Shown here: positions 2,748 through 54,701 of the stretch, in pieces
Layout of the letters: each line of letters starts with the position of its first letter
Position numbering within the stretch: the first letter of the stretch is position 1
IMG/VR virus record: IMGVR_UViG_3300037541_000804
Location: 62,001-126,000 of that record
Reading direction: 5' to 3' (one strand)
DNA length: 64,000 bases
Origin: a virus
The notes under the pieces: generated by a model
Databases searched by the model: none
Told to the model about the DNA's origin: nothing
Seen by the model: the letters and a program-made list of their open reading frames with translations, nothing else
Translations under genes and position numbers: made by a program

Positions 2748-3092
2748 TCACTCGAAAGAACCGCCCAACACTTCAACAGAACCCTCTAGTATTCTAAGAG
2801 AGAGTCCAGAAAGTGGATAACCGTAAACTTCATGACTATAACTGTCTTTTGTCAAGGAGAGCGTTTGACTGGCTGATAAACTCATGTTGACAATACCAGA
2901 AGTGGCCGAAAGTATTTCTGGCGTAAAACTTGGCCCAAGTTCGCCGTCCCAACCTCGGCGCAAAACTCCAGAAAAAGAGTAACCAGAGATTGGATATTCT
3001 CCCGAAGATGTTGCAAGGTCAAAAGTGTATGAATAGGAAGCTCCACGCTCAATAGCGTATGCTCCAGTGAGATTGTATGTTGCAGCGGCCAT
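2748..3092 (-). CDS. small virion-associated protein, Ig-like/beta type
   Basis: 114 residues with alternating beta-strand pattern: ERGASYSYTFDL near 15-26, a GYSFSGVLRRGW segment near 37-48, then LSASQTLSLTKDSYSHEVY and a closing ILEGSVEVLGGSFE. This layout (rGa.f..t, G.lR, Ls..qT..l..g.Y.yev, leG.v.V) recalls short beta proteins often found beside phage tail and baseplate genes. It lies between the fibre gene and gene 3092-3583, and its ATG overlaps that gene's stop region, suggesting co-translation. Assignment to virion assembly is by resemblance and position, not by a catalytic motif. Confidence 0.6.
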   Translation of the reverse strand: MAAATYNLTGAYAIERGASYSYTFDLATSSGEYPISGYSFSGVLRRGWDGELGPSFTPEILSATSGIVNMSLSASQTLSLTKDSYSHEVYGYPLSGLSLRILEGSVEVLGGSFE

Positions 3093-3583
3093 TAGTCGAA
3101 ACGAGAGTATGTGAAGTATGGATAAGTGCCGCTTTCGAAATTATTCCATCCACCGACCTGAGATGGCGTTGCGGCGTAAAGTTGATAACTATACACCATA
3201 GTGTCAATCTCGGATTTTAAATCCTTAGCTATATCATTAAACTCGCGTGCTACTTCTTTTTTATTCACGAAAGAAATCCTATTATCTCCATCGCTAACAG
3301 AAAGGATGTTATCGCCATTTGAGGACGAGTTTAAAACCCCGCGTAAGGCATTCCTTGAAGAACGTTGGTAATAATTAACCATGTATTGGCGAGCTAAAAT
3401 GTTCGCCGCAGCATTATCAATCGAGGGGTCTTCTCCCGAAAAGTTTGTGTGGATGAGCGTGTTTAATCCGCCGACATTAGCCGACAACCATCCAGAAATT
3501 TGCGAGTGAGTAGTCGCTTCTGTATCAGAGGCGAATTCCGTCGAAAAGATTTGAGAAGCAATCGTGGAATAGATGTTTGGCAT
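3092..3583 (-). CDS. head-tail region protein, function unknown
   Basis: 163 residues, mostly helical, with hydrophilic surface and no membrane segment. It sits between capsid-side genes and tail-side genes, where head-completion or connector proteins are usually encoded. Its length and predicted helices would suit that role, but no motif proves it. The ATG at 3581-3583 is preceded 7 bases upstream by the L-motif, so it is probably the first gene of a late transcript running into 2748-3092. Confidence 0.55.
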   Translation of the reverse strand: MPNIYSTIASQIFSTEFASDTEATTHSQISGWLSANVGGLNTLIHTNFSGEDPSIDNAAANILARQYMVNYYQRSSRNALRGVLNSSSNGDNILSVSDGDNRISFVNKKEVAREFNDIAKDLKSEIDTMVYSYQLYAATPSQVGGWNNFESGTYPYFTYSRFD

Positions 3584-3590
3584 CTATTGG

Positions 3591-3596
3591 ATTACA
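3591..3596 (-). promoter_or_regulatory. L-motif TGTAAT upstream of 3092-3583
   Basis: TGTAAT with 7 bases to the ATG at 3583. No -35 hexamer is visible. Confidence 0.5.
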
Positions 3597-3837
3597 CGGT
3601 TACGCGATAAAATGAAAAAGGCTTTTTGTCAGATAGGCTGCCTACCTTAAACTCGACTGGAGTTTGAGTTCCGTCTTTCTCAAATTTATAATGAGTATGG
3701 ATTGTTTGGCCGCAAAGAGACGTGAACGATGAGCCTCCAATTTGAATAGATGGCTTTTCGAGTTTAGAAGGATCAAATTTCTTAAACTTTCGCCGCTCCT
3801 GCCAATTGGCAAATAATTCTTTAATTTTTGCAAACAT
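3592..3837 (-). CDS. small basic protein in structural block
   Basis: 81 residues starting MFAKIKELFANW. The N-terminal half is a basic amphipathic helix (ERRKFKKF), followed by a beta-rich half ending SFYRVTV. It is encoded between the 182-residue protein and the presumed head-tail gene. No family recognised. A second frame is open across the same bases, but only this frame fits the gene order and spacing. Confidence 0.5.
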   Translation of the reverse strand: MFAKIKELFANWQERRKFKKFDPSKLEKPSIQIGGSSFTSLCGQTIHTHYKFEKDGTQTPVEFKVGSLSDKKPFSFYRVTV

Positions 3838-6281: not shown

Positions 6282-7811
6282 TTAGTTAAAGGAAATTTTA
6301 ATATTGTCAGCGGAGAATGCTTTTGCCCAAGCTTCTTTGAGGTCTTCGGGGTTTTGGCCACCGTTGTTGTTTGGGATTTGTTTTTCGGAAGCTTTGGCTT
6401 CTTCTAGGGCTTTTTCGGCCAATTCTTTGTCGGAGAGCTTCTTGGTAGAGGCTTTGGAGATTTCAGTGAGTTTTTCAGCAACAAGTTTGTCAATTGAGGC
6501 TTTGGCTTCTTTTTCCTTGGCCTCTTTGCCTTTCTTGTTTTTGTCTTTCATCAGTTTGGCCATCTTATCTTTGTAGGAAGTGAAAGCAGCTTCGGACGAA
6601 TCGAGAGTTTTGAGGTCGCTCGCAAGGATTTGCTTGTCGTCAGCGTCAAGATCGAATTCTTCATCAAATTCAGCCATGCGAGCGCTGAAAAGGTCAGCAG
6701 CAGATTTGGCGGAAGCTTCGGCTTCAATTTTGGCGAGCTTGTCTTTTGTTTCGGCCAAATCTTTAACCAGAGCTTCTTGGGAAGCTTTAAATTCGGCGGA
6801 TTCTTTTTCGGCCTTTTCTTGCGAAGCCTTAGCCTCGTTGACTTTTGCCACATAACTTTCGGACGCTTCACGAATTTTGTCAGCCATAGCAGCTTCAAAA
6901 CCTTTCGTGGTGTTGTCTTTAATCATGTGGGCCTTGATTTCTTCGAGGATTTGTTCAAATTTTTCCATATTTTGCGGATGCTTGTTAGGTGTTACACTTG
7001 GTTTTTGGGATTTATCAAAATTATTTTCGGAAGATAAAGAAATTGTTGTTTTTTTCTCGGGTTCGCGGTTTGAATTGTGGGTTATAGCGCCGAGCGGCAT
7101 AATACCTGCTGGTTTTTTGGTCAACGCCACAGCCAGAGGAAGATGTTCTTTGCCGATTAAGCGGTAAATCTTTTCGCCATTATTGGTTTTGCCTTCGCCG
7201 CCGTATGCGGATAGGTATTTCTTTAATTCGCCAACGTATTTTTCGTCTCGAATGATTTCTGCCTCGTAGAAGTTTTTGCTACCAATAGCTAGGCCGAAAA
7301 CTGGAAATCCAATCTCTAGGCTTAGGCTGATACTCTTATATAGGGGGCTGTCTGGATTGGCAGAACTTTCTAGGGACGAAGCTAGTTCACTATCGGCGAT
7401 TTTATAGACTACGCCGCCAACACTGATATTGAACGGCTCTTTTGAAGCCAGCGCATCTTCCGCCGAAATAAGAACATTATCGTTATATGAGCTAAAACTA
7501 GAGGTAACTAAATGCCCAACAACTTTATCACGATTATGATTAGCGTTAACCATTTTGTTCCGCCAAAGCTGAACCGTGCCAATTGCGGCTTCTGGTTCAA
7601 GCATGTCCTCGTTTTTATTGGCGTAACCAGCGGCGCAGGCATTTGCGGCGAAAGCAAGAAGGTCGATGTTCCGATCTAGGTCGATTTCGTAAGAGGGAAT
7701 TAGCGGTCGAAGACCTTCGAGTGAGGCTTTTGAGTAAAACGGGCATTCAAAAAATGACCCGCCGTAAGAAACATTCGACTCAAAAATAGACGTATGGGCA
7801 AAATTCTCCAT
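6282..7811 (-). CDS. prohead protease fused to scaffold
   Basis: 509 residues in two parts. Residues about 1-250 are globular, with a conserved-looking segment NKMVNANHNRDKVVGHLVTS (about 88-107) in which a His precedes the VVGHL strand, resembling herpesvirus-type prohead proteases. Residues about 270-480 form an almost uninterrupted Glu/Lys/Ala coiled coil, as in scaffolding core proteins. Protease-scaffold fusions that process themselves during head assembly are common in phages. The gene is first in the capsid operon and has an L-motif upstream. The catalytic Ser cannot be assigned with certainty by eye. Confidence 0.7.
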   Translation of the reverse strand: MENFAHTSIFESNVSYGGSFFECPFYSKASLEGLRPLIPSYEIDLDRNIDLLAFAANACAAGYANKNEDMLEPEAAIGTVQLWRNKMVNANHNRDKVVGHLVTSSFSSYNDNVLISAEDALASKEPFNISVGGVVYKIADSELASSLESSANPDSPLYKSISLSLEIGFPVFGLAIGSKNFYEAEIIRDEKYVGELKKYLSAYGGEGKTNNGEKIYRLIGKEHLPLAVALTKKPAGIMPLGAITHNSNREPEKKTTISLSSENNFDKSQKPSVTPNKHPQNMEKFEQILEEIKAHMIKDNTTKGFEAAMADKIREASESYVAKVNEAKASQEKAEKESAEFKASQEALVKDLAETKDKLAKIEAEASAKSAADLFSARMAEFDEEFDLDADDKQILASDLKTLDSSEAAFTSYKDKMAKLMKDKNKKGKEAKEKEAKASIDKLVAEKLTEISKASTKKLSDKELAEKALEEAKASEKQIPNNNGGQNPEDLKEAWAKAFSADNIKISFN

Positions 7812-7825
7812 GCTGTATGGAAATT

Positions 7826-7832
7826 ATTACAC
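7826..7832 (-). promoter_or_regulatory. L-motif GTGTAAT for the capsid operon
   Basis: GTGTAAT on the minus strand, 14 bases before the protease/scaffold ATG. It faces a second GTGTAAT on the plus strand 30 bases away, so the gap carries a divergent pair of late-type boxes. Confidence 0.5.
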
Positions 7833-9877: not shown

Positions 9878-11905
9878 TCAAACCAACAGGGCGGCCTCGT
9901 AAGCGCTGATTTGGTGCTCTACAGAAGCCTCCAAAATCTCGGGCCTAACACTTAGTCCGCCGATTTTATTAGGGTCTTTCACACATTCAGCGGCCAAATT
10001 CTCCCAATCAGCTTGTTCAGTAGCGCAAACCACAGACTGCATTAAGCGTTCTGCCATCTGGCTTTGGAACTCGTTAAGCGATTCAACTTTATGTTTTTCT
10101 TTTATTTTGGCCGAAATAAAGGACAAGAGATTTTCCGTGGCATAGACGGTTGTTTTAATATCTTCGACGCTGGCGACAGCAGTTTTCGCTCCATTTGGTC
10201 TGCCAGACGGTTTCATGTTTTTCTTGCTGGTAGCCTTGGGTGGCGCTGTTTCCGCCGATTTTTGGTTGTCGATAGAGTATTTCGTATTGGTATCCAGCGG
10301 TGGAGAAACAACAGGCACGGGACTCAACGGCAACCAATGGCCCTTGCGTCGTTCCTTAACATACTCTTCTTGACGAGTCATGAAATCTTCGCCCTCTGGG
10401 TCTGGGAATTGGCCCGTGCGGATAGTTTCCAAGCCAGTCTTAACGTCTAGCAATCCTAGTTCCATCATACGAGTCACCACACGCCACATTTGAGTTGGGT
10501 CTTTGGCATCTGTAACCTTAAACGTCACCTTGGGCGGCGATTGCATGCCTAGATTTTTGGCAATACGATTAATCTCGGGCTGGAGGAAATCGTTTAGGAA
10601 AGTGTTTCGTGCCTCGCGCAATTTCTCAAGAAATACTTGGACTTTTGTTTGCGTGTTGCCATACTTTTCTTCACCAATAATAACGTTTTGTAAACCCTCG
10701 GCAATATCACGATTCAGAGTCTCGTATTTGGCTGGCCCAAGAACTTTTTGCAAGTCAGGGATAATAAATTCAGCTTTTGTGGTCCAATCGCTAACCAACG
10801 TGCGGCCAACGCTCTCGTTTTTAAACAAATTTTGCATCGCCGTTAAATTGGCAGGGTTAATCCCGCCGTCTTCTGGTTTTGCGCCCATTGTAATTAGGAG
10901 AATCATATTTTCCGCCGTTCGGAGAACTGCTTGGTCCATTTTTTTCATCTCTAGTTTGGCGTTAATATCGTCTAGGACACGATAGCCGAATGGAATGGCA
11001 AACGGTTCGTAAGACTGGCGCTTATAAAAGCTAGAAACTAGGCAAGTTGGGTCTAGTTTAATGCGAATGCCGTTACTTTGCCAAGTTTTCTTAGCGAGAG
11101 CATCTTTTGCTTCTTTTGGCAGGCTTTCAGCGATTTTTTTGTCGTCTTCGTTTTGGGGATTCGCTAGTCGCAGAAGGTCATACTTGGAAAGGATAAGCTC
11201 GTATTGGTCATTGCCGAATGTGGTTGAGGCTTTAGCTACAATATTGAATGGATTAAGAAAGATATACTTAAGCGGCACAACATTTTTGCCGCCTAAAGAA
11301 TCTTCGGCCCCATAGACTTGGATTAGCTTGCGATAATCACTTTCATCAAAGGTTCCGTCCACGCGATAAATGAAAACATTACCCGAACGATAATATTCGC
11401 GGAAATATTCGTCGCAAACTTTCCAGATTTTGATTTTTTTCAGCCAAGCGTCGAAGAATTTTTTAGCTTTTTTAGTTCCAGCCTCAAAATAGAGTTCCGT
11501 ATTGGCAAACTCGCTCATTAGGTCAATAGCGTTAGCAAAAACAGCCACATTAGCGTATGCTTTTTGGCAGAGTTCAATAGCGTCACGAACGTCAACACAA
11601 TCGCTTGTGGGTGAATAGGCGTATGGGAGCATTCCCGCCCGAATAGCGGCGAATCTATCGGGAACGCCTACTAAAGCGGCGGAATTAATTCGGCGACCTG
11701 TGCTTGCGCCAGAATCGGGCGAGCTTCGGCCCGCAATAGCAGCTTTGGCCACATTGGTTAGAAGCGTGGAAGACGAAGTGTAGAATGGATCGCCAGCGGT
11801 TTGGGGTTCCCAAGAGGCGACGGCTAAGTTTTGAATTGGGGCGGGTTCTGGTTGGGAGAGTTGGTTCCAGTAGTCGGCTTTGTGCTTGGTGTATTTTCGC
11901 GGCAT
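9878..11905 (-). CDS. portal protein
   Basis: 675 residues, the size of large-phage portals. The central part reads CQKAYANVAVFANAIDLMSEFANTELYFEAG, followed by FFDAWLKKIKIWKVCDEYFREYYRSGNVFIYRVDG, the typical portal wing/stem pattern. A helical region then contains PEDGGINPANLTAMQNLFKN and KYGNTQTKVQVFLEKLREARNTFLNDFLQPEINRIA, the long stem/crown helices. It forms the dodecameric DNA entry ring that docks terminase. It follows terminase in the operon, but a GIY-YIG gene is wedged between them. An L-motif lies 8 bases before its ATG, so it can be transcribed on its own. Confidence 0.85.
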   Translation of the reverse strand: MPRKYTKHKADYWNQLSQPEPAPIQNLAVASWEPQTAGDPFYTSSSTLLTNVAKAAIAGRSSPDSGASTGRRINSAALVGVPDRFAAIRAGMLPYAYSPTSDCVDVRDAIELCQKAYANVAVFANAIDLMSEFANTELYFEAGTKKAKKFFDAWLKKIKIWKVCDEYFREYYRSGNVFIYRVDGTFDESDYRKLIQVYGAEDSLGGKNVVPLKYIFLNPFNIVAKASTTFGNDQYELILSKYDLLRLANPQNEDDKKIAESLPKEAKDALAKKTWQSNGIRIKLDPTCLVSSFYKRQSYEPFAIPFGYRVLDDINAKLEMKKMDQAVLRTAENMILLITMGAKPEDGGINPANLTAMQNLFKNESVGRTLVSDWTTKAEFIIPDLQKVLGPAKYETLNRDIAEGLQNVIIGEEKYGNTQTKVQVFLEKLREARNTFLNDFLQPEINRIAKNLGMQSPPKVTFKVTDAKDPTQMWRVVTRMMELGLLDVKTGLETIRTGQFPDPEGEDFMTRQEEYVKERRKGHWLPLSPVPVVSPPLDTNTKYSIDNQKSAETAPPKATSKKNMKPSGRPNGAKTAVASVEDIKTTVYATENLLSFISAKIKEKHKVESLNEFQSQMAERLMQSVVCATEQADWENLAAECVKDPNKIGGLSVRPEILEASVEHQISAYEAALLV

Positions 11906-11913
11906 ATAAAAAG

Positions 11914-11919
11914 ATTACA
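11914..11919 (-). promoter_or_regulatory. L-motif TGTAAT upstream of portal
   Basis: TGTAAT with 8 bases (CTTTTTAT) to the portal ATG at 11905. No -35 box. Confidence 0.5.
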
Positions 11920-11962
11920 CGCGGGCGCGGAAAGTTGGGAAAGTAACTTTGAAAGTCACAAT

Positions 11963-12712: not shown

Positions 12713-14565
12713 TATACAAAAAATGGAGTAAAAGTTTTTTGAACCTCTTCAACGGGTAGATTCCCCATGTCCCTGAATATCGAAACTCCCCAATTCCCCA
12801 ACATTAGGGCTGTAAAACTGTCTCGGCGAGCTTTATTTGGCCCACGCTGCCGTTTTAAATTCGGCGGAAGATCAAAAGACTGTGTTCCTTGCGCTGTAGA
12901 AGTCACTTCAATAAGAGCACACTGGGTTTTGGTCATTTCAATATTATCTTTCAGGTTTTCCACAAAATCTACAACATTTGGTTTTGTCGTAGCATTATCC
13001 CTAAGAAATTTTAGAGAATCAACTGGCACGGGCAGCTTAATTTGCCGCTCGAATTCCTCATCTGTCGCCGAGCTAGCGAACCAGATTTTTTTGTGGTCAA
13101 TTGCAGACTGTAGTAATTCATTGCCTTGACGAATAAAGTTACTGGACGGTTTTCTCTGTATGCAAATGCGACCTTCGCTAGCGTTATAAAGGTTACGGAT
13201 ATTTTGAATATCTTCGTGGTATTTAGTGGCATCTTCCACGTCAACGTCGATTGTTTTAATTTCCAGCTTGTCAGATTTAAAGATTTCGCTCTCATTTGCG
13301 GCGCTTAAAAACTGAACCCCACCAGCAAAGTCGAAAACAATAAACTTAATATTAAAATTCTTGAGCAAGAAATGGAAGTATTTGATATGATCCTTCATTG
13401 CTGTTCCTGGAAGGGCGTAAGAATGGACAAGGACACCAATACCAGTCTCCTTAAAGTATTTAATTACCTGAAACACAAAGTCATCAGACCCTTCTGATTC
13501 AGACCATGAAATATCGCCACTTAGAATATACTCCGCGTCTTTTTCGCCAATAGCCTCTACGCATTGACCTTCGCCATCCGCATAAGTACATTCCTTCATT
13601 TTGGACATTTTAAAGAATCCAGAGCTATCGTCCGTGAACCGCGATAAAAATTCTCTTCCAAATTGGGCTTCGCTCATTTGTGCCTTAGCGCTTGCGATCA
13701 ACGATTGGTCATAAAGCTCTTCTGGTAAACACTCATATGAGATGTGGAATACTCCGTATTTAGCATTATCTTTTCTCTTATCGTCAAAGATGGCTTTGTC
13801 ATACTCGTCATACATTGTTTTCAGATACTCAAAAGAGTAAGATGCAGAAGATAGCCCAATCATCTTATTACTTCCCCATTGGTAACGGTCTTCTTCCGTC
13901 ATCTTACCTTGAGAAATCAACTCTGTTTCGGCCTCTCTTACCTTTTTTCTATCTGTGACATCAGTGTTTGTGGATAGGAACGGGCGAATAACTTCATTGA
14001 TCAAACGAGGCGAAAGAAGCAAAAGCTCATCAATAACCATCACTTTGAAACGATAACCACGAAGCTTTCCGCCGTCGCCCGTAGGAAGGCACACCAACTG
14101 ACTGCGACCAATTCTGATAACCCATTCGTCATTCTTTAGGGAAATATCTTTATCACCAATGATTTGCTTTAGAAACTTTGCCTTTGGATCAAGTCTTAAA
14201 TCCAAGATTTTCTGCATCAATAGTCGAGCCTGACGGAAAGAGTTAGCGATGATTCCAATTTTAATTCCCTGATTTAATGACGCATAAAGAATAAGAAAAA
14301 TAGCGCAAATAAAGGACTTTCCCGACCCGCGACTACATATAGCGAGAAAGTAATCAACGTTGAACATCGCTTTTACCATCATGCTTTGGAACTCAAGAAG
14401 TTCTACTCCAGTAAGTATCTTAGACAGGAAAGTGAGATTCTCTCGAAAGAACTTTTCAAGCCATAGTTTCGCGTCCTTCTCCTCTAAAAACCCCTCCACT
14501 TTAGCAAGGTCTTCGTTAGTGTACTCTTTCTTCTTAATCGGCTGAACGCCAGCTTGCCATGCCAT
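12712..14565 (-). CDS. terL: terminase large subunit
   Basis: 617 residues. The packaging ATPase has Walker A CSRGSGKS (77-84) and Walker B VMVIDE (175-180), then a coupling-like segment around SSASYSFEY. The nuclease domain begins with SGDISWSE, whose Asp is the first metal ligand, followed by KFIVFDFAGGVQFL and NVVDF. This is the motor that cuts concatemers and pumps DNA through the portal. It overlaps the upstream nuclease gene by ATG/stop fusion, with an AGGAGG in that gene's last codons that could serve as a ribosome-binding site, one of few here. Downstream it is joined to the GIY-YIG gene. Confidence 0.93.
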   Translation of the reverse strand: MAWQAGVQPIKKKEYTNEDLAKVEGFLEEKDAKLWLEKFFRENLTFLSKILTGVELLEFQSMMVKAMFNVDYFLAICSRGSGKSFICAIFLILYASLNQGIKIGIIANSFRQARLLMQKILDLRLDPKAKFLKQIIGDKDISLKNDEWVIRIGRSQLVCLPTGDGGKLRGYRFKVMVIDELLLLSPRLINEVIRPFLSTNTDVTDRKKVREAETELISQGKMTEEDRYQWGSNKMIGLSSASYSFEYLKTMYDEYDKAIFDDKRKDNAKYGVFHISYECLPEELYDQSLIASAKAQMSEAQFGREFLSRFTDDSSGFFKMSKMKECTYADGEGQCVEAIGEKDAEYILSGDISWSESEGSDDFVFQVIKYFKETGIGVLVHSYALPGTAMKDHIKYFHFLLKNFNIKFIVFDFAGGVQFLSAANESEIFKSDKLEIKTIDVDVEDATKYHEDIQNIRNLYNASEGRICIQRKPSSNFIRQGNELLQSAIDHKKIWFASSATDEEFERQIKLPVPVDSLKFLRDNATTKPNVVDFVENLKDNIEMTKTQCALIEVTSTAQGTQSFDLPPNLKRQRGPNKARRDSFTALMLGNWGVSIFRDMGNLPVEEVQKTFTPFFV

Positions 14566-15476
14566 TAGCTTTGTCCTCCTAAAAAGTATTGCATATCGAC
14601 TCCATAAAGTTTATTTCCCAAACATAGTAGCTTAGGAATGATTAGTTGACTATTCTCTCTACTGCCAGAAAACACGAATTGTAAATGGCCGCGAAATTCT
14701 TCGACCAAAGTTCGCATATTGTGGCCAATAAAAGATAGGTTGAATTTGTGATGAGAGGTTCGCTTGAGGTCAAAAACCTTGCCCATTGGGCATTCTATAA
14801 CTACCCATAGGTAACAATCTTGGGTTTTCGCCCGATTAATTTCGCGCCGAAATCTTTCTAAGTTGTCGCCAACTAAGGTTTGACACCAATCCTCAAATGA
14901 TTTACGATCAACAGCGGTATTTGTGTAATCCGCCCCAATAGTAGAGTAATCTCCTACGTCAAGTTTATGGCATTCGCTATTCGCGAATTGCAATTTTTTT
15001 TGCTCTCGCGAATCAATCAGAATCTTCCTCTTGGAAAAGTCGTTAGACCATTCGGTGGGGAGTTTATCTTTGAACGGAGGAATTAAATTGGCCAATTCGC
15101 AGGCTTTTGAGTATGATCCAAACAATCGCTTGTATTCTTTGATCGGCGGAAGGTCGGCGAAAAATAGCTCAACCTCTGACGGCGCGAATGTGAGTTTTTT
15201 ATCTTCGGCCCTCTTCTTTAACATGTCTAAAGCTAAATCCTTAGCTTCGTTTTCTGGAGACACGTTCAGCCATTCCATCATATTCTCGCGCTGGGAGAAG
15301 TGTGTGGAAAAGTATTCATCCTTTTGTTTAAACTGAATAGCCTGCCGCGTCAACAGGTCTTTTCTCGGGAAAAATTCGCAATAATAATCGGCCACGGTCA
15401 TCCCATGCGCTTTAAAGTGCGCGTGAAGGCTTCTTTCGCTTGGAAACGTAGTCCCACATTTTTTACACGGAAACAT
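14565..15476 (-). CDS. ERCC4-type nuclease with C2H2 zinc finger
   Basis: 303 residues. The N-terminus is a C2H2 finger (C4, C7, H20, H24). The C-terminal half carries LIDSREQ (154-160; D155, R157, E158), then VGDYS (174-178) and VDRKSFEDW (189-197). This is the D-x-R-E / GDY / (D/E)RK signature of the XPF/ERCC4 nuclease fold, which cuts branched or flap DNA. It sits immediately upstream of terL and overlaps it, so it may trim replication or recombination branches before packaging, comparable in purpose to T4 endonuclease VII. No helix-hairpin-helix pair is visible. Confidence 0.8.
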   Translation of the reverse strand: MFPCKKCGTTFPSERSLHAHFKAHGMTVADYYCEFFPRKDLLTRQAIQFKQKDEYFSTHFSQRENMMEWLNVSPENEAKDLALDMLKKRAEDKKLTFAPSEVELFFADLPPIKEYKRLFGSYSKACELANLIPPFKDKLPTEWSNDFSKRKILIDSREQKKLQFANSECHKLDVGDYSTIGADYTNTAVDRKSFEDWCQTLVGDNLERFRREINRAKTQDCYLWVVIECPMGKVFDLKRTSHHKFNLSFIGHNMRTLVEEFRGHLQFVFSGSRENSQLIIPKLLCLGNKLYGVDMQYFLGGQS

Positions 15477-16556: not shown

Positions 16557-16703
16557 TTATTTTTCAATCCATAAGAGAATTGGCTCTTTAGTATTAGGGC
16601 AAATTGCCCAATGTGTATATTTGGGAGGCGGCGTTTTAAATTCTAAAAATTCTACCGTATGATCCAACTGACACCTAGCGCAGCACTTAATTGTAATATT
16701 CAT
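16557..16703 (-). CDS. 48-residue zinc-knuckle protein
   Basis: Starts with an ATG that overlaps the stop of the sigma-like gene (ATGA). It reads MNITIKCCARCQLDHTVEF and later has HWAICP. CxxC followed by a more distant H/C set suggests a single zinc site. It ends two bases before the next ATG. The tight overlap on both sides supports translation. Function unknown. Confidence 0.55.
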   Translation of the reverse strand: MNITIKCCARCQLDHTVEFLEFKTPPPKYTHWAICPNTKEPILLWIEK

Positions 16704-17377
16704 GGCCAATACTCGGCTATATCACTTTCCGCGATGATTCGTTTCGCTTCTTTGGACAAACTATCCCTATGAGCGGCCAAAATCTTCTTTTGCCCGCCCT
16801 TGTTTCTGCCGCGAAGTCTCAAAACCAGAGCGGCCTCGTCTTCTGGAATGTTGCCGATAAATAAAATCTTAAACGCCTCAAACCGCTTAGGCATCATGTG
16901 TTTTTCCAACTCAACCAAGACGCGGCGCATTGTTTCCTCGAAATTAATTGAGTCGTCTATTTTATTGTTCACCTCTTGTGAATGATGTTCTAGCTCAAGA
17001 GGCATTTTAGCATGGTAGCCATACTTCTTTGTCTTGCTCCACTTTTCGTAGAGGGGGCATTCCTCGCATTGGAGATTGCTAGGAGTTTCGGCGCAACCCT
17101 CTTCTCCAACTGCTGACTTACATTGCACGCATGGGCGAGCGTGACTCGTGTAAAGGTTGCGGAATTGGTTGTAAATCTGATTGCTGGCAATGCGTTGAAC
17201 CCATGGAGCTAGTTTGCGCGTTTGATCCCAGAGATGCCACTTTTTAGCAATGTGGGCGCGAATAATTTGGGCTATATCCTCCCAATCAATCCAACGAAGA
17301 ATACCCAGAGTCCACTTTCGGCGGCGCTTGTTTAGTTCTTTTTCAATCTGATCTGAGCAATCTTCGTAGGTTAGCAT
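16700..17377 (-). CDS. sigma-70-like transcription factor with zinc insert
   Basis: 225 residues. WIDWEDIAQIIRAHIAKKWH followed by LAPWVQRIASNQIYNQFRN (about 29-76) matches sigma region 2: a D.eDi.Q helix, then a W-x-x-RIA-x-N helix that binds core polymerase and the -10 element. A Cys cluster (CVQCKSAVGEEGC...CEECPLYEKW, about 83-111) looks like an inserted zinc knuckle. The C-terminal part (about 160-215, with EDEAALVLRLRGRNKGGQKKI) is a shortened helix-turn-helix like region 4. It could direct host polymerase to the -35-less TGTAAT motif seen before late genes, as T4 gp55 does for its own late promoters. The target motif is inference. Confidence 0.65.
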   Translation of the reverse strand: MLTYEDCSDQIEKELNKRRRKWTLGILRWIDWEDIAQIIRAHIAKKWHLWDQTRKLAPWVQRIASNQIYNQFRNLYTSHARPCVQCKSAVGEEGCAETPSNLQCEECPLYEKWSKTKKYGYHAKMPLELEHHSQEVNNKIDDSINFEETMRRVLVELEKHMMPKRFEAFKILFIGNIPEDEAALVLRLRGRNKGGQKKILAAHRDSLSKEAKRIIAESDIAEYWP

Positions 17378-17682
17378 TATAGTTTGCGGGGTTTGAATCT
17401 TTTGGCGACTGTCCCGCCGTTTTCAGAGAAAGAGAACGAGTTGAGTGTTTGAACGTATTTTTCGTCGTCGTCGGCTCCAGAAATACTAACTTGAAGACCG
17501 TCTAGTTCTGGAACGACAAATACATTGGAGCCATCTTCACTGTCGTCATCAAGTTGATGAGCAACCTTTGAGGCTTTGGTGGTTGTGGTTAGCGTGTTTA
17601 ACGATTGGCCGCAACTTGTGCAAAAGTTAGAAGTTGCAGTGGGAGCTTTCGTCCCACAGGAAGGGCAGTATTTTGGCGTCAT
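17377..17682 (-). CDS. zinc-ribbon protein
   Basis: 101 residues. It begins with CPSCG...CTSCG (about 6-24), a clear double-CxxC zinc ribbon, followed by a Ser/Thr-rich linker, an acidic patch (DDDSEDGS) and a basic end (KRFKPRKL). Its stop overlaps the start of the sigma-like gene, so the two are co-translated and may act together in transcription. A TGTAAT lies 18 bases upstream of its ATG, with a TAATAT box nearer (5 bases). Confidence 0.6.
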   Translation of the reverse strand: MTPKYCPSCGTKAPTATSNFCTSCGQSLNTLTTTTKASKVAHQLDDDSEDGSNVFVVPELDGLQVSISGADDDEKYVQTLNSFSFSENGGTVAKRFKPRKL

Positions 17683-17723
17683 GTTTAATATTAACGGCCA
17701 ATTACACTAATTAGTGGTAATTA

Positions 17724-18413
17724 TTAGAGCGCCGTGACTTGGCCGATATAGCTGGTAGTCTCGCCCTTTTCATTCTGAACAATCGACACGCTAATATGCA
17801 AGCCAATCTTTTCACCATGAGCGTTGGTGAAATTAACGGTATCTTCGAATTCACAACCGTCATTAAATGCGCTAGACCATACTTTGGTATATCTAGCCAA
17901 TTCGTCAGTCTTGATAAAGCGCTTCCACGAAAATCCTAATAATTCATTGGCCCCACAATCTAAGAATCGGGCGTAGGTTCTGTTGACCCAAGTGTTTTTG
18001 CCATGAGAATCGCAAAAGAAGTAGCCGCTTTTTGAATCATTAAGTAAGGCTGATTGGCGACTATCGCTAGCCATTTGGCGCTCTTCAATGCGTTTGATAG
18101 CGTCAAAAATAGAAGACCCGCCGTTTTTGGTAAGCTTGTCTCTGACAAAATTGGTTAAGTCCATGACAGACTTCTTTACGTCGTCTATTTCCTTTCGGCC
18201 CAAATCTATTCCAGCTTTGTTTTCGGCCATTTCAAGTTCTAGCTTTCGCGCTAATTTAATCCAGCGCCAGAAACACGCGAAAGGCTTGGCTAAGACGGTT
18301 AAACATTGCCAAACAAAACCAACCAACTCCCTATATTTAAGAGCGAGCATGAAAATCGCCGTGCCAGAAGCGATTACTTGGGCAATGTGGGAGATTAGTT
18401 CCTGTTGATCCAT
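17724..18413 (-). CDS. membrane-anchored PAS-domain protein
   Basis: 229 residues. Residues about 10-50 are hydrophobic (IAQVIASGTAIFMLAL...FVWQCLTVLAKPFACFW), one or two membrane segments. Residues 55-115 form a coiled coil. Residues about 118-229 are a PAS fold: LLNDSKSGYFFCDSHGKNTWVNRTYARFLDCGANELLGFSW...F...DEL..YT, then FEDTVNFTNAHGEKIGLHISVSIV and YIGQVTAL. PAS domains bind ligands or partners and normally feed kinases or cyclases, but no output domain follows. It starts 8 bases after an L-motif, so it is expressed with virion genes. It may be a sensor, or a receptor-mimic that joins host PAS complexes. Confidence 0.7.
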   Translation of the reverse strand: MDQQELISHIAQVIASGTAIFMLALKYRELVGFVWQCLTVLAKPFACFWRWIKLARKLELEMAENKAGIDLGRKEIDDVKKSVMDLTNFVRDKLTKNGGSSIFDAIKRIEERQMASDSRQSALLNDSKSGYFFCDSHGKNTWVNRTYARFLDCGANELLGFSWKRFIKTDELARYTKVWSSAFNDGCEFEDTVNFTNAHGEKIGLHISVSIVQNEKGETTSYIGQVTAL

Positions 18414-18421
18414 GCAAAAGG

Positions 18422-18427
18422 ATTACA
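18422..18427 (-). promoter_or_regulatory. L-motif TGTAAT upstream of PAS gene
   Basis: TGTAAT with 8 bases to the ATG at 18413. No -35 box. Confidence 0.5.
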
Positions 18428-18468: not shown

Positions 18469-19707
18469 CTATTTTCGCGGAATGGATTCGATCTTGTCTG
18501 CGAAATGTTTTTTATATTGATCTTCTTGGAATTTGATGTAGGCTTTATTGGCTCCAGCCCCTTTTTCTCTATTTAAGTTAAATTGCTCCATGTCCTCATT
18601 GGAACCAAACTTTTTGATCTGAAATTTGACATTTCCTTTAGTCATATCTATTAATTTATATCTAACAATCGCTGCTGGCAAAAATCCAAGATAAATAAGA
18701 GGTTTGATTTTTTGATCATAAAATTCTTGCGGCGACATTCCATATTTTTGATATGCAGTACTACTTGTTAGAGATATTCTTTTTCTTCTTTCCCCACAAC
18801 CATCAGAAAGCCATGATTGCGTACTTGCCACACGACCCCTTTCCGAAAGTTCCGCCCTCTTTGTTGGATCATTTTTGATAAGCTCCGCTCTCGCTCGGGC
18901 CTTTTCTCTGATTTTTTGCTTAGTCTCTTCGGTTTGAATTTTTCCAAACATTCCATTGTTTTCTCCCGACATATTTAACTCTCCGCTTTCATACTTCGCC
19001 TTCATTTTCAACGCTCTAATCTCAACAGCTTTTTGATACTTTTCTGGGTTTTCAATTCTATTTCTTTTGGCCGTGTCTTTCTGTTTTTGAATCCTTTCCA
19101 ATGAACGACTTCTTCCCCGCAAAGATAACTTTGGAATTCCCTTTTGAGACGCGCTCATTTTAGCTTTCGTTTCGTCGGAGTGCTTTTCCCCCTTCATACA
19201 TTTCATTGACGAATCTTTATATTCTTGAGTCATGATCCTAGACCAGCCAAGACTTTCAAATTCGGCAATTTCATCGACCTTGCTTTCGTGCAACATTACC
19301 CTTTTCTCCTTACTGTATAGCCTCACATAGGTTTTAAAATTTGGCTTTATCAAGGAATAAAGTCTCGCGTTCATATAACGACCTTCTTGGTGTGGGTTTT
19401 TCGCCCTAAGCTGTCTGAAAGCAAATATCATTTTCTGCTTTAAAAGAGAATCAAACATTTTTGTCGCACAAAGATGGACGATAAAATGTTCTTTGGCCGT
19501 TAAAAATACCAAGTTTTCCTTATCTTTTTCGCCTCCCAAGCCAAAGCTTTCTGGGAGAATATGATGAGATTCAACATACCCGAAAATCTCCTTTAAAACC
19601 TTTCGATCTTGTGGCCGTTTCAAGGCGTTCTCAATTATGCGAGAATAGTACTTTGTGTACTTGTTTTGGTTAGCTATAGAGATTACTTTTTCTAGATATA
19701 TATTCAT
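18469..19707 (-). CDS. HNH homing endonuclease with NUMOD3 repeats
   Basis: 412 residues. HHILPESFGLGGEKDKENLV...EHFIVHLCATK (about 48-84) is an HNH-type beta-beta-alpha metal nuclease core. NUMOD3 repeats follow (MKCMKGEKHSDETKAKMSASQKG; MSGENNGMFGKIQTEETKQKIREKARAR). This nuclease-first architecture is typical of intron-free mobile endonucleases. It is AT-rich compared with neighbouring virion genes and sits alone between the PAS gene and phoH, so it is most likely a selfish insertion. Confidence 0.85.
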   Translation of the reverse strand: MNIYLEKVISIANQNKYTKYYSRIIENALKRPQDRKVLKEIFGYVESHHILPESFGLGGEKDKENLVFLTAKEHFIVHLCATKMFDSLLKQKMIFAFRQLRAKNPHQEGRYMNARLYSLIKPNFKTYVRLYSKEKRVMLHESKVDEIAEFESLGWSRIMTQEYKDSSMKCMKGEKHSDETKAKMSASQKGIPKLSLRGRSRSLERIQKQKDTAKRNRIENPEKYQKAVEIRALKMKAKYESGELNMSGENNGMFGKIQTEETKQKIREKARARAELIKNDPTKRAELSERGRVASTQSWLSDGCGERRKRISLTSSTAYQKYGMSPQEFYDQKIKPLIYLGFLPAAIVRYKLIDMTKGNVKFQIKKFGSNEDMEQFNLNREKGAGANKAYIKFQEDQYKKHFADKIESIPRK

Positions 19708-19767: not shown

Positions 19768-20511
19768 TTATTCAATCATTTTCAGCTTCTCTAGGATAAA
19801 GCGAACAAATCCAGACCTAAGAATGTCCTCTTTTCGCCTCAACTCAAAGCAGTGAATACCATTATCTCTAGACTCTTGATCATTAAATTCTTCGAAAATT
19901 TCCCTAAATCCAGACTCTCCTTTTGGCAAGTAGTTTTGATGTTTGCTGTCTCCAATAAAGAAAATCCTTGTAAATTCGGCGCATCTTGTCAAGAGCATTA
20001 AAAAATCTGTGCGGGAAATGTTTGCACTCTCATCAACGATGATAGCTTTGCACGCCCAATTTTTGCCTTGGACAAATCCTACGCTCGTAGAGTCAATTCT
20101 ATTTTCTGCCTTAAGCAATTCAATTTCAGATGGCGGCAAAAGCTCTTCTAGCTTATCATAGACTAGGCAAGTGTAGGGACTAAGTTTTTCTGCCAATTCG
20201 CCTTTCAAAAATCCGACTTTGCCAGATTTCGAGCTTTCTACGGGGTTTCTGACGTAGATAATTTGGTCAATTTTCTTCTGATTAAGAAGCTTTAGCGCAG
20301 CCAAAACACAGGTATAAGTCTTAGCCGTTCCGTATAGTCCGTCAATAAACACGCATCTCGTATCCTTGTCCATGGCGGTTTTCAGAATATCAACCTGCCT
20401 TTCCGTCATATCATCCCTTTCCCTAATATGAAGCTCTTGAGAGAGTTTTTCGCGTTGAAATACCTTCGGGGATTTATCTATGCCTTTTTTAACAGCGAGT
20501 TTTTTGCTCAT
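19768..20511 (-). CDS. phoH: PhoH-like ATPase
   Basis: 247 residues. Walker A is GLYGTAKT (about 59-66, with Ala where Gly is usual). The Walker-B-like IIVDESANIS is followed by the PhoH signature around FIGDSKHQNYLPKGESGFREIFEEF. PhoH-like proteins are RNA-associated ATPases very common in marine and freshwater phages. It is flanked by the HNH gene and a virion gene, with an L-motif 16 bases upstream of its ATG. Confidence 0.85.
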   Translation of the reverse strand: MSKKLAVKKGIDKSPKVFQREKLSQELHIRERDDMTERQVDILKTAMDKDTRCVFIDGLYGTAKTYTCVLAALKLLNQKKIDQIIYVRNPVESSKSGKVGFLKGELAEKLSPYTCLVYDKLEELLPPSEIELLKAENRIDSTSVGFVQGKNWACKAIIVDESANISRTDFLMLLTRCAEFTRIFFIGDSKHQNYLPKGESGFREIFEEFNDQESRDNGIHCFELRRKEDILRSGFVRFILEKLKMIE

Positions 20512-20527
20512 GTTGGATATGTATTAT

Positions 20528-20533
20528 ATTACA
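20528..20533 (-). promoter_or_regulatory. L-motif TGTAAT upstream of phoH
   Basis: TGTAAT with 16 bases to the ATG, so a leader of roughly ten bases rather than a leaderless start. Confidence 0.45.
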
Positions 20534-25587: not shown

Positions 25588-25739
25588 TGTTTAACTATTT
25601 TAAAAAACGCGCCCAAAAGAAAAGACAAAAACTCGGCGGAAGATGGGAAAACATTAAATATCTATTCCATAGCCGAATACATCCCTACCATCCTTTGGGC
25701 GCTCAAGATTGTCCTTTTCCCACAAGGGTCTTAAATTAG
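25587..25739 (+). pseudogene. 5' part of a small gene apparently split by an HNH insertion
   Basis: Starts by TAATG overlap with the previous gene: MFNYFKKRAQKKRQKLGG. From about 25654 the frame runs antisense through the 3' end of the minus-strand HNH gene and stops at 25739, so the last 30 codons are unlikely to be native. A small Cys-containing frame resumes at 26441-26548 and feeds into the next gene by ATGA overlap, as expected if one gene of about 60 codons was interrupted. Confidence 0.45.
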
Positions 25740-26442
25740 TATAATGAAAGCATCTCTTTTGATCGTCCTCCCTAGTTAGGTCAAAAGTGTTGCATGGACG
25801 GATATGATCAATATGCCATTTATCAATGCCTTTCCCTCTATTTTCCCAACTCATCCCATCCACAAATTGATCTTCTAAATATTTTATTAAAAACTCAATT
25901 GAACACCCAACAAGCTCCATAGATTTTTTCATTTTTTGAGATTTTGCCAACCTTATTACATTGGCTATTCTACACGCTAGAATAGCACGAATCTTTCCCT
26001 GTTCTTTGTTTCTTTTTTGACGAGCGCTAATCTCTTCTGAGAACAAGTGGGAAGATTTGCTTCTATAAAAGTGTTCCATTTTTACAGAGCTTTCTCTGCC
26101 TTTTAAGCAAAATGGCCTACCAGCAATAGTCGCAATTATTTGCCGCCTCGCTTTTAGTCTATAAACCAATCTTGCCTCTTCATTGTCATAAGGTTTTCCA
26201 AGATAAATAAAAATTGTTAAATTGTTAAGACAATCAAATTCCTCCTTAGATTTCAAATCAACCAAAGTGAAAATAAGAGCGTCCTTATTTTTTGTTAAAC
26301 AAAATCTATTACCCACAACTTTCTGATTCCCAATTTTCAAATGTCCAAAATTTGAATGATCACCACCAAACTTCCTCGCTAATTCTCTAATTGATTCTGT
26401 GGTGGGTCTTTTAGTTATTACGTCGTAGATTTCTTCGTTCAT
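25654..26442 (-). CDS. HNH homing endonuclease
   Basis: 262 residues. The C-terminal module reads FLIKYLEDQFVDGMSWEN...WHIDHIRPCNTFDL...HYTNLRPLWEKDN, a complete HNH core (H-I-D-H, then N and a final NLRPLW helix). Residues 1-150 form an unrelated N-terminal DNA-binding part. It is on the minus strand inside a plus-strand operon, is AT-rich, and has its own L-motif 11 bases upstream of the ATG. The same C-terminal module occurs as a fragment at 50477-50668. Confidence 0.88.
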   Translation of the reverse strand: MNEEIYDVITKRPTTESIRELARKFGGDHSNFGHLKIGNQKVVGNRFCLTKNKDALIFTLVDLKSKEEFDCLNNLTIFIYLGKPYDNEEARLVYRLKARRQIIATIAGRPFCLKGRESSVKMEHFYRSKSSHLFSEEISARQKRNKEQGKIRAILACRIANVIRLAKSQKMKKSMELVGCSIEFLIKYLEDQFVDGMSWENRGKGIDKWHIDHIRPCNTFDLTREDDQKRCFHYTNLRPLWEKDNLERPKDGRDVFGYGIDI

Positions 26443-26548
26443 GTATATACCATATTACACATTTCAATGGAATAGCGAAACCAGAGGCCGACCCTGTATT
26501 CTATGCAGAGGAACACCAGTTGTTGAAATTTATAATCCAAAGCTATGA
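26441..26548 (+). pseudogene. 3' part of the split small gene (CILCRG)
   Basis: 35 codons, MYIPYYTFQWNSETRGRP then CILCRGTPVVEIYNPKL. The ATG overlaps the divergent HNH start, so it may be fortuitous, with the sequence from about 26450 being the displaced 3' end of gene 25587. The CxxCRG turn looks like half a zinc site. Its TGA overlaps the next ATG (ATGA), which supports former co-translation. Confidence 0.4.
26454..26459 (-). promoter_or_regulatory. L-motif TGTAAT upstream of HNH gene
   Basis: TGTAAT with 11 bases to the HNH ATG at 26442. The endonuclease carries the same late-type signal as virion genes. Confidence 0.45.
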
Positions 26549-49166: not shown

Positions 49167-49257
49167 GATTTTATTAGTAAATTGACGAAAAGAAAACCCC
49201 TTCGTTTACGGAGGGGATGAATTTTCGCATTGTTTTAGGAAATTTTGTAAAAGTTAG

Positions 49258-49263
49258 TGTAAT
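49258..49263 (+). promoter_or_regulatory. L-motif TGTAAT of element 1
   Basis: TTAGTGTAATATA context, 9 bases to the tnpB ATG. The same context precedes tnpB of element 2. Confidence 0.5.
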
Positions 49264-49272
49264 ATAATTTGA

Positions 49273-50433
49273 ATGACGCATCGCGGCTACAAATATCGCA
49301 TATATCCAACAGCTTGTCAAGAGGGAATCTTGCGCAAAACGATTGGATCGTGTAGATTTGTGTACAATTGGGCGCTGGCACAGCGGCGAGAGGCGTGGGT
49401 GACGAGTAAAAAAAGCGTTTCTTACAGCGCAACGTCCAAAGGTTTGACCGAACTCAAGGAGTCGCCCGAGAAAGTTTGGCTTAACGACGTTTCAAGCGTT
49501 TGCTTACAACAAAGTTTGCGAAATCTTGATTTGGCGTTTAACAACTTTTTTCGCAAAAAATCCGCATATCCATCTTTCAAGAGTCGAAAAAATGGTGGCA
49601 GTGCGCGATTTATGGATAACGCTTTCCAAATTAAAGGAGATGGCTTGTTTCTTGCAAAAATTAAAACGCCAATCGTGATTAAGTGGTCGCGTCAGCTTTC
49701 CAGCGCTCCTAATTCATGCACAATTTCCCAAAACGCTGCGGGTCAGTGGTTTGCATCGTTCTTGTGCGAGGAAGAAATACCTCACTTGCCGCCAACGAAT
49801 AACAAGGTTGGCATTGACGTTGGAATTGAAAACTTTGCCACACTTTCAGACGGGCGAAAATTTCAATCTCCGAAAGCGATTCGTAAGTTGCGCAAAAAGT
49901 TAGCATGCTTGCAAAAGCGTCACTCGCGCAAGCAAAAAGGCTCTAAAAACCGTGAACGCGCTCGCAAAAAGGTTGCCCGCGTTCACCAGCACATCGCAGA
50001 TGTGCGTAAAGATTTTCTCCACAAACTGTCAACTCAACTCGTTCGCGAAAACCAAGCGATTGCAATTGAGGATTTGGCGGTGTCAAACATGGTTAAGAAC
50101 CGCAAACTTTCTCGCTGTATCAGCGAGCAAGGCTGGCGCGACTTTCGCACTATGCTTGAATACAAGTGCGAATGGTATGGGCGAGAACTACTTGTCGTTG
50201 ACAGGTTTTTTCCCTCATCCAAGACCTGTTCTTGTTGTGGAGCGAAAGCAGAGTTAACATTGAAAGATCGTGTTTGGAGTTGCGCCTGTGGCGCAACGCA
50301 TGATCGCGACGTGAACGCCGCGAAAAACATTTTGGCCGCTGGACAAGCGGTTGCAGCCTGTGGAGCTGACGGAAGACCAACGAAGAACTACGTTCTTCGC
50401 GGCAGTCGGCAACGAAGCAGGAAACCTTCTTAG
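49273..50433 (+). CDS. tnpB: TnpB RNA-guided nuclease, element 1
   Basis: 386 residues. N-terminal helix-turn-helix (MTHRGYKYRIYPTACQEGILR), wedge region, then RuvC: VGIDVGIENFATL (first Asp), IAIEDLAVSNMVKN (Glu) and HDRDVNAAKNIL (last Asp). The zinc module is CSCCG...CACG, with C-x-C in the second knuckle where the second copy has C-x2-C. All three catalytic acids remain, so the protein should be active. TnpB cuts DNA guided by an omega RNA made from its own right end. Confidence 0.9.
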   Translation: MTHRGYKYRIYPTACQEGILRKTIGSCRFVYNWALAQRREAWVTSKKSVSYSATSKGLTELKESPEKVWLNDVSSVCLQQSLRNLDLAFNNFFRKKSAYPSFKSRKNGGSARFMDNAFQIKGDGLFLAKIKTPIVIKWSRQLSSAPNSCTISQNAAGQWFASFLCEEEIPHLPPTNNKVGIDVGIENFATLSDGRKFQSPKAIRKLRKKLACLQKRHSRKQKGSKNRERARKKVARVHQHIADVRKDFLHKLSTQLVRENQAIAIEDLAVSNMVKNRKLSRCISEQGWRDFRTMLEYKCEWYGRELLVVDRFFPSSKTCSCCGAKAELTLKDRVWSCACGATHDRDVNAAKNILAAGQAVAACGADGRPTKNYVLRGSRQRSRKPS

Positions 50434-53410: not shown

Positions 53411-53495
53411 AAGAAAGCCCCTTCCTTTAGGTAGGGGATGAATTTGCGGTCAAACAAAATAATTAAAAAGTTTTTGGGTGTTTTTTAACAATTAG

Positions 53496-53501
53496 TGTAA
53501 T
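53496..53501 (+). promoter_or_regulatory. L-motif TGTAAT of element 2
   Basis: TTAGTGTAATATA, 9 bases to the TTG start of tnpB. Confidence 0.5.
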
Positions 53502-53510
53502 ATATGGTGA

Positions 53511-54701
53511 TTGCACCACCGCGCTTACAAATTCCGAATTTATCCAACGACAGCGCAAGAACAAATCTTGCGGCAGACGATTGGGTGTACGCGGTTCATC
53601 TATAATTGGGCGCTGGCCCAAAGAAGGGAGGCATGGGTGCAAGATAAGAAAAACATGACCTATGCAAAGTCTTGCAAAGCGTTGACGGAGTTAAAAGACT
53701 CGCCAGAGCGCGAGTGGCTTAACGATGTGTCAAGCGTTTGCTTGCAACAAAGCCTCAATAACTTGGACGTTGCATTCGGCAATTTCTTTAAGAAGCGGGC
53801 GGCATATCCCAGCTTTAAGTCTCGCAAAAACGGTGGTTCTGCGCGGTTTATGGGCAACGCCTTTCGGCTGAAAGGCGAAAGCCTCTTCCTCGCGAAGATT
53901 AAAACGCCAATTAAAGTTCAATGGTCGCGCCCGCTTTCCAGCGTTCCGAACTCCATTACCGTTTCTCAAAACGCCAGCGGTCAATGGTTTGCGTCGTTCC
54001 TTTGTGAGGAGGAAATTGAAAAGCTTCCGCCTTCCAACGGTCGAATCGGTATCGACGTTGGTATTGAAAATTTTGCCACACTCTCGGATGGGTGCAAATT
54101 TCAATCTCCAAAAGCAATTCGTAAACTGCGCAAGAAAATGGCACGCCTGCAAAAGAGTCATTCGCGTAAGCAAAAAGGCTCCAAAAACCGTGAACGCACT
54201 CGCAAAAAAGTCGCCCGCCTTCACCAGCATATTTCAGATGTGCGCAAAGATTTTCTCCACAAACTGTCAACTCAACTCGTTCGCGAAAACCAAGCGATAG
54301 CGTTAGAAGACTTGTCTGTATCAAACATGGTTAAGAACCGCAAACTTTCTCGCTGTATCAGCGAGCAAGGCTGGCGAGACTTTCGCACCATGCTTGAATA
54401 CAAATGCGAATGGTATGGGCGCGAGCTACTAATAGTAGATCGTTGGTTTCCAAGCAGCAAAACCTGCTCATGTTGTGGAGCGAAGGCTAGCTTTGGCCTA
54501 GAAACAAGGCAATGGACGTGTGGCGGCTGCGGCGCTAGCCATGACCGAGACGTTAACGCCGCAAAAAACATTTTGGCCGCTGGACAAGCGGTGTCAGACT
54601 GTGGAGTGGACGGAAGACCAACGAAGAACTATGTTCTTCGGGGCAGGACACTACGAAGCAGTAAATCAAAGGCGCGAGCCAAGGAATCCCCGTCTCTTTA
54701 G
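53511..54701 (+). CDS. tnpB: TnpB RNA-guided nuclease, element 2
   Basis: 396 residues, beginning at TTG (MHHRAYKFRIYPTTAQEQIL); the ATG and GTG just upstream are out of frame. RuvC residues are complete: IGIDVGIENFATL, IALEDLSVSNMVKN and HDRDVNAAKNIL. Zinc module CSCCG...CGGCG (C-x2-C). Same domain order as copy 1, with a central stretch nearly identical at DNA level and more divergent ends. Confidence 0.9.
   Translation: MHHRAYKFRIYPTTAQEQILRQTIGCTRFIYNWALAQRREAWVQDKKNMTYAKSCKALTELKDSPEREWLNDVSSVCLQQSLNNLDVAFGNFFKKRAAYPSFKSRKNGGSARFMGNAFRLKGESLFLAKIKTPIKVQWSRPLSSVPNSITVSQNASGQWFASFLCEEEIEKLPPSNGRIGIDVGIENFATLSDGCKFQSPKAIRKLRKKMARLQKSHSRKQKGSKNRERTRKKVARLHQHISDVRKDFLHKLSTQLVRENQAIALEDLSVSNMVKNRKLSRCISEQGWRDFRTMLEYKCEWYGRELLIVDRWFPSSKTCSCCGAKASFGLETRQWTCGGCGASHDRDVNAAKNILAAGQAVSDCGVDGRPTKNYVLRGRTLRSSKSKARAKESPSL

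Follow-up and report, generated by a model that had tools for sequence, protein, structure and literature searches.

A predicted late sigma factor with a Cys4 linker module and a GTGTAAT element before gene starts in a large group of uncultured phages

The sigma operon and its genomic setting

The stretch of DNA analysed here (the window, 64 kb) runs from 62001 to 126000 in a virus record of 165,329 bases, which carries tailed-phage genes for a terminase, a tape measure, UvsX-like and DnaB-like proteins, a primase, a DNA polymerase, RNR and PhoH. A portal-like ORF (9878..11905) is backed by weak matches only. On the minus strand, a two-gene operon encodes a small zinc-ribbon protein followed by a sigma-like protein of 225 residues, hereafter Zn-sigma. 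The features of this locus are as follows.

16700..17377, minus strand: Zn-sigma, ECF-like sigma70-family protein, 225 aa, ATG at 17377
17138..17377, minus strand: sigma2 domain, residues 1-80 (Sigma70_r2 in relatives; VIA match to RpoE sigma2)
17300..17302, minus strand: residue 26, Ile in the window member and Ala, Ser or Cys in relatives; the residue that best tracks the sixth promoter base
17222..17245, minus strand: KKWHLWDQ loop, residues 45-52, near-invariant by sequence conservation
17057..17131, minus strand: Cys4 module C83-X2-C86-X8-C95-X11-C107 in the sigma2-sigma4 linker (conservation, 181 non-redundant loci)
16712..16948, minus strand: sigma4-like domain, residues 144-222 (AlphaFold2, VIA, Sigma70_r4_2)
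17377..17682, minus strand: zinc-ribbon protein, 101 aa (Zn_ribbon_3, E=1.2e-5), overlapping the Zn-sigma start codon by one base
17701..17707, minus strand: GTGTAAT, 18 nt before the ATG of the zinc-ribbon/Zn-sigma operon

Zn-sigma is a divergent, ECF-like sigma70-family protein. The Sigma70_r2 profile matched 34/34 relatives (best E 1.2e-6), the window member taken alone scoring below the Pfam cut-off (E=3.7e-4, 20.7 bits against 24 bits). A model computed with AlphaFold2 from 34 natural sequences reached a pLDDT of 76 and a pTM of 0.39, so that single domains are usable and their relative placement is not. ECF sigmas were its top PDB matches in Foldseek (E 0.012, probability 0.96). With VIA, residues 1-80 superposed on RpoE sigma2 (Z 8.8, 2.4 Å over 77 residues) and residues 144-222 on the -35-binding sigma4 domain of SigL (Z 8.2, 2.5 Å over 71 residues), Z values that lie around the level at which helical matches can arise by chance. 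Nevertheless, two separate domains each match their counterpart in a single family, in the correct order, and the sequence profiles agree. A PDB sequence search with the family profile returned nothing significant, and under the curated ECF model TIGR02937 the window member scored 17.0 bits and one relative 30.7, short of the cut-off of 42.9. The layout, sigma2 and sigma4 with no sigma3, is that of ECF (group 4) sigmas, and the C-terminus carries a conserved Asp followed by hydrophobic residues. The initial annotation had described a phage sigma-like factor with a clear region 2 and had proposed structure prediction as a check for a sigma-2 fold; the profile and fold matches bear out the description, and the sigma2 fold was recovered. 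Its view of region 4 as short or lost does not hold, since a sigma4-like domain is predicted and Sigma70_r4_2 matched 8/34 relatives.

The four cysteines between regions 2 and 4 are kept in 181/181, 176/177, 176/176 and 181/181 non-redundant relatives. There is no invariant His, and the CCHC pattern C-X2-C-X4-H-X4-C is absent. The inserted module recognised earlier is thus real, but it is a Cys4 module rather than a zinc knuckle; from its sequence, it is expected to bind zinc. The coupling to an upstream zinc-ribbon gene was likewise confirmed and extends well beyond the window: an ORF with two CxxC pairs ends at most 40 nt from the Zn-sigma start in 54/54 loci with a readable upstream neighbour, which suggests that the zinc-ribbon protein is probably a co-factor of Zn-sigma.

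Several neighbours of the operon were also noted. Adjoining it is a gene with its own TGTAAT box (17724-18413, minus strand); the PAS-domain protein that it encodes has a hydrophobic stretch at the N-terminus and is possibly a sensor. Two homing-endonuclease-like genes with NUMOD3 lie on the same strand, one of GIY-YIG type beside the terminase gene (11963-12712) and one of HNH type near the sigma operon (18469-19707). A further minus-strand ORF (14565-15476), with the terminase gene on one side and the ORF after Zn-sigma on the other, combines a C2H2-finger-like start with an ERCC4-type nuclease domain.

Relatives of Zn-sigma occur on hundreds of uncultured viral contigs. Scanning IMG/VR with the window member gave 271, and scans with other members gave at least 578 and at least 589; the records concerned are fragments of viruses. 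No homologue was found among isolate phages in 50,697 phage records (best E=3). Genome contigs gave three matches, all on MAG contigs (Halobacteriovorax, an unnamed bacterium and Flavobacteriaceae), and since these taxa are discordant we make no host call for the phages carrying Zn-sigma.

The GTGTAAT motif and other start-proximal elements

The motif TGTAAT, singled out earlier as the candidate target of the sigma-like factor, is modestly over-represented in the window as a whole, with 49 sites against 33 expected (1/100 shuffles as high). Its placement is far more striking. GTGTAA ending 6-20 nt before an ATG was seen 13 times in the 165-kb record against 0.48 expected, ranking 1/4096 among hexamers, and it held the first of the 4096 ranks upstream of starts in 9/9 large genomes with Zn-sigma (z 11.5-21.2; 8-16 observed per genome against 0.16-0.54 expected). 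Gene starts were assigned by a greedy longest-ORF procedure, on which these counts depend. Stretches of the control phages T4, S-SSM4, Slash and phiEco32 gave 0 sites before starts, and the reverse complement of GTGTAA was not enriched, which indicates a directional motif. Run without supervision on 579 regions upstream of genes in relatives, EM returned aaaGTGTAAt, with a log-likelihood ratio of 330 against 46 for shuffled sequences; on the 165-kb record alone it returned the early TTGACA box and not GTGTAA. At least one GTGTAA-type site was present in 152/181 non-redundant Zn-sigma loci. Besides the site before the sigma operon, the following were located in the window.

3591..3597, minus strand: GTGTAAT ahead of ORF 3092..3583 (7 nt to its ATG), predicted late promoter
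7826..7832, minus strand: GTGTAAT ahead of ORF 6282..7811 (14 nt to its ATG), predicted late promoter
11914..11920, minus strand: GTGTAAT ahead of the portal-like ORF 9878..11905 (8 nt to its ATG), predicted late promoter
18422..18427, minus strand: TGTAAT (variant CTGTAAT) ahead of the PAS-domain ORF 17724..18413 (8 nt to its ATG)
20528..20533, minus strand: TGTAAT (variant CTGTAAT) ahead of the PhoH ORF 19768..20511 (16 nt to its ATG)
26454..26460, minus strand: GTGTAAT ahead of ORF 25654..26442 (11 nt to its ATG), which has a weak endonuclease VII-like match
49257..49263, plus strand: GTGTAAT ahead of the TnpB-like ORF 49273..50433 (9 nt to its ATG)
53495..53501, plus strand: GTGTAAT ahead of the TnpB-like ORF 53511..54701 (9 nt to its start)

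Across the 165-kb record, the motif or its TGTAAT core also precedes the tape measure gene, a glycosyltransferase-like gene and a homing endonuclease gene. The genes served suggest that their timing would be late. A third TnpB-like (IS605 OrfB) gene lies in the same record (L084:13366-14532, plus strand), and a separate AGTGTAATAT box stands 9 nt ahead of each of the three start codons, as though a TnpB-like mobile element had adopted the late promoter of the phage.

The distance between GTGTAA and the ATG peaks at 8 nt (44 sites), with further sites at 9 (28), 10 (10) and 12 nt (12). At 8-10 nt no space is left for a Shine-Dalgarno sequence, and such a site was found at 1/113 starts with GTGTAA. 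Upstream of the motif no column exceeded 0.15 bit over matched background, in agreement with the earlier proposal of promoters lacking a -35 box. Among genes that overlap or abut the upstream gene, GTGTAA was found at 4/355 (1%), against 15-31% elsewhere; being nearly absent at the former and frequent at the latter, the motif behaves as a promoter. An artefact of stop codons was discarded, as only 5/113 GTGTAA sites double as the stop codon of the upstream gene. From the sequence evidence, GTGTAAT is most likely a -10-only promoter yielding nearly leaderless late mRNAs. Counting the last T of TGTAAT as -7 would place initiation about 3 nt or less from the ATG at the commonest spacings.

The same genomes carry promoters of a different type. 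Elements of the form TTGACN-N15..19-TAnnnT precede 99 starts in nine large genomes, with a spacer of mostly 16-17 nt and a -10 that typically ends 6 nt before the ATG, a position from which one would expect early mRNAs to be leaderless and the host to translate such mRNAs well. In the window, between about 28000 and 64000, a textbook TTGACA-N16/17-TATAAT promoter stands ahead of many short ORFs, its -10 ending some 6 nt from the ATG. Upstream of the Zn-sigma operon itself, a TATAAT-type element was present at 30 of 54 loci and GTGTA at 6, the former being what is expected for a factor made ahead of the late genes; the GTGTAAT before the operon in the window makes self-activation possible. The TATAAT box recurs 4-8 nt before the zinc-ribbon ATG of relatives (for example L019, L125 and L133), with clade-specific A/T-rich words further upstream, and is a candidate middle promoter. 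A search for a single-subunit phage RNA polymerase (PF00940) gave no match, but the control was silent too, so that this is no evidence of absence.

Candidate readers of the motif

The bearing of Zn-sigma on the motif was analysed through covariation between the protein and the sixth promoter base. The share of sites with GTGTAA followed residue 26 of Zn-sigma, being 198/215 with A26, 59/149 with S26 and 3/16 with C26; in the tree, S26 and C26 arose in different clades. In two disjoint clades the residue 26 column ranked 4th and 2nd of 225 and had the best combined rank, linker columns ranking above it in one clade. Within clades, the association with the sixth base had Fisher values of 5e-8 and 2e-24, uncorrected for phylogeny, and an independent-pairs test was not significant, with too few pairs and little power. 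Residue 49 (L to Q), which had given a Fisher value of 4e-19 on 62 loci and full genomes, was set aside when it weakened at 181 loci and residue 26 explained more. That the sixth base shifts with residue 26 in two separate clades points to Zn-sigma as the reader of the motif. An ECF-type sigma2 domain also suits a G-T-N-N-A-A element, and the mostly TATAAT-type element before the operon of Zn-sigma, together with the covariation, favours the same assignment. The near-invariant KKWHLWDQ loop may be the counterpart of the -10 specificity loop of ECF sigmas, as its sequence suggests. Co-occurrence, position statistics and covariation thus support the proposed target indirectly, and more exactly as GTGTAAT; a second phage sigma is a serious rival for it. 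This and a third sigma-like ORF lie elsewhere in the record.

record 160266-160838 (L087:16266-16838), minus strand: second sigma, HSGIY family (about 185-215 aa)
record 131269-131820 (L086:7269-7820), minus strand: third sigma-like ORF, ECF-like (Sigma70_r2, TIGR02937)

According to the best surviving alternative, which we regard as unlikely though worth serious attention, the HSGIY sigma reads GTGTAAT and Zn-sigma reads, say, a middle promoter or modulates RNA polymerase. The HSGIY sigma folds like group-3 sigmas (sigma32, SigB), matches phage sigma PHROGs and was present in every checked record above 105 kb, one 104-kb record giving none, so that co-occurrence alone does not separate the two sigmas. 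Its KFSTY-type region 2, however, resembles that of factors reading TATAAT-like boxes, and among 21 aligned sequences it has no convincing region-2 column separating genomes with a strict motif from those with a relaxed one, whereas Zn-sigma has such a column. A good deal less probable is that a host sigma factor reads GTGTAAT and that the phages use the host's own promoter type. Our comparison covers phage genomes, which leaves this reading some room; but the same genomes have ordinary TTGACA/TATAAT promoters at other genes (the 99 starts above), and GTGTAA stays the same throughout a very diverse group of phages in which Zn-sigma is equally constant. About as improbable is a role of GTGTAAT as an operator or as a translation-initiation signal of the mRNA. 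The fixed short distance to the start codon would suit such a signal, yet the -10 of the early TTGACA promoters lies similarly near the ATG (mode 6 nt), so that the spacing fits a -10 element, and the scarcity at overlapping genes (4/355), when the motif is common elsewhere, led us to reject a translation element. Finally, the third, ECF-like ORF matches Sigma70_r2 and TIGR02937, but most relatives with the same motif gave only matches of the Zn-sigma and HSGIY types with a region-2 model, and we consider it a most improbable reader. The factor that reads GTGTAAT would therefore be Zn-sigma rather than the second phage sigma, a conclusion we hold with fair though incomplete confidence.

Another start-proximal word, GTTAGTATAAT, recurs in the 165-kb record, GTTAGTA being seen 6 times against 0.23 expected. 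Its sites lie, for example, upstream of L087 152195-153397, L087 155151-155543 and L082 14566-15204, and its reader is possibly one of the extra sigmas.

Comparison with known sigma factors and proposed mechanism

Zn-sigma would work like T4 gp55 and phiEco32 gp36; by sequence it is a member of neither, and its fold is nearest to ECF sigmas. T4 gp55 is a late sigma acting on a single -10-like box with no -35 (PMC2988020), and the earlier parallel with it stands as regards the promoter. It fails as regards the protein: gp55 consists of sigma2 plus small extensions and gp33 acts in place of sigma4 (PMC2988020), whereas Zn-sigma carries sigma2 and a sigma4-like domain in one chain. The family profile gave no match to gp55 of S-SSM4, and the T4 late motif is TATAAATA as against GTGTAAT. 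The acidic-hydrophobic C-terminus of Zn-sigma may parallel the tail by which gp55 binds the clamp; in eight records neither a gp45-type clamp nor a bacterial beta-clamp scored over the cut-off, a search that divergent clamps could escape. The gp36 protein of phiEco32 is also a phage-encoded sigma, serving middle and late genes from a one-element promoter without a -35 (PMC8948821). It recognises the single element tAATGTAtA, with starts 6-8 bp downstream, and has been described as lacking homology to region 4 (PMC8948821). There is no detectable sequence match between gp36 and the Zn-sigma family, and neither a Cys4 module nor a zinc-ribbon partner is reported for gp36.

Bacterial ECF (group 4) sigmas such as RpoE, SigH and SigL share the two-domain sigma2-sigma4 layout and provide the best fold matches. 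The sigmaE -10 of E. coli and Salmonella, GTCAAA (PMC1804206), has four of six letters in common with GTGTAA. Unlike these sigmas, Zn-sigma has the Cys4 linker module and a constant zinc-ribbon partner and stays below ECF family cut-offs, and GTGTAA promoters lack the -35 that accompanies the -10 in ECF promoters. Gp47 of phage 7-11 is another late phage sigma, whose C-terminal part shows a relationship to region 4 (PMC8948821), but its promoters are bipartite, GTAAtg-N16-aCTA (PMC8948821), while the phages with Zn-sigma conserve one element.

We propose that Zn-sigma is probably the late sigma factor of a large group of uncultured phages, reading a single -10-like GTGTAAT with no -35. Early genes would be expressed from host-type TTGACA-N16/17-TATAAT promoters. 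The sigma2 domain of Zn-sigma would then dock on the core of the host RNA polymerase and read one -10-like element, GTGTAAT, in an A/T-rich setting and without a -35. The sigma4-like domain would probably grip the beta-flap tip instead of reading a -35 box, the Cys4 module being placed in the linker between the two domains, and the zinc-ribbon protein from the same operon would act as a constant partner. Initiation is predicted at the start codon or a few nucleotides from it, giving nearly leaderless late mRNAs. The full picture is more tentative, and we give it somewhat less than even credence: a one-chain late sigma whose zinc module joins sigma2 and sigma4, with a constant zinc-ribbon partner, a -10-only promoter and leaderless late mRNAs, as the last stage of a three-stage cascade that would start with host sigma70 and pass through a group-3-like phage sigma to Zn-sigma, in a major group of uncultured aquatic phages. 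In the open-access literature we found no earlier description of GTGTAAT promoters, zinc-bearing phage sigmas or phage leaderless late sigma systems.

Hundreds of viral contigs share the Zn-sigma system, which has no homologue in the isolate phages searched, so that the motif would allow late genes to be mapped throughout a large group of uncultured phages. Because the sixth base covaries with residue 26, promoter specificity can be tested directly, and from the spacing of 8-10 nt most late proteins would be expected to come from leaderless mRNAs. A review of T4 late transcription asks why the sigma2 and sigma4 functions are split, no fused late sigma being known (PMC2988020). With sigma2 and a sigma4-like domain in one chain, Zn-sigma is a natural candidate for such a fused late sigma.
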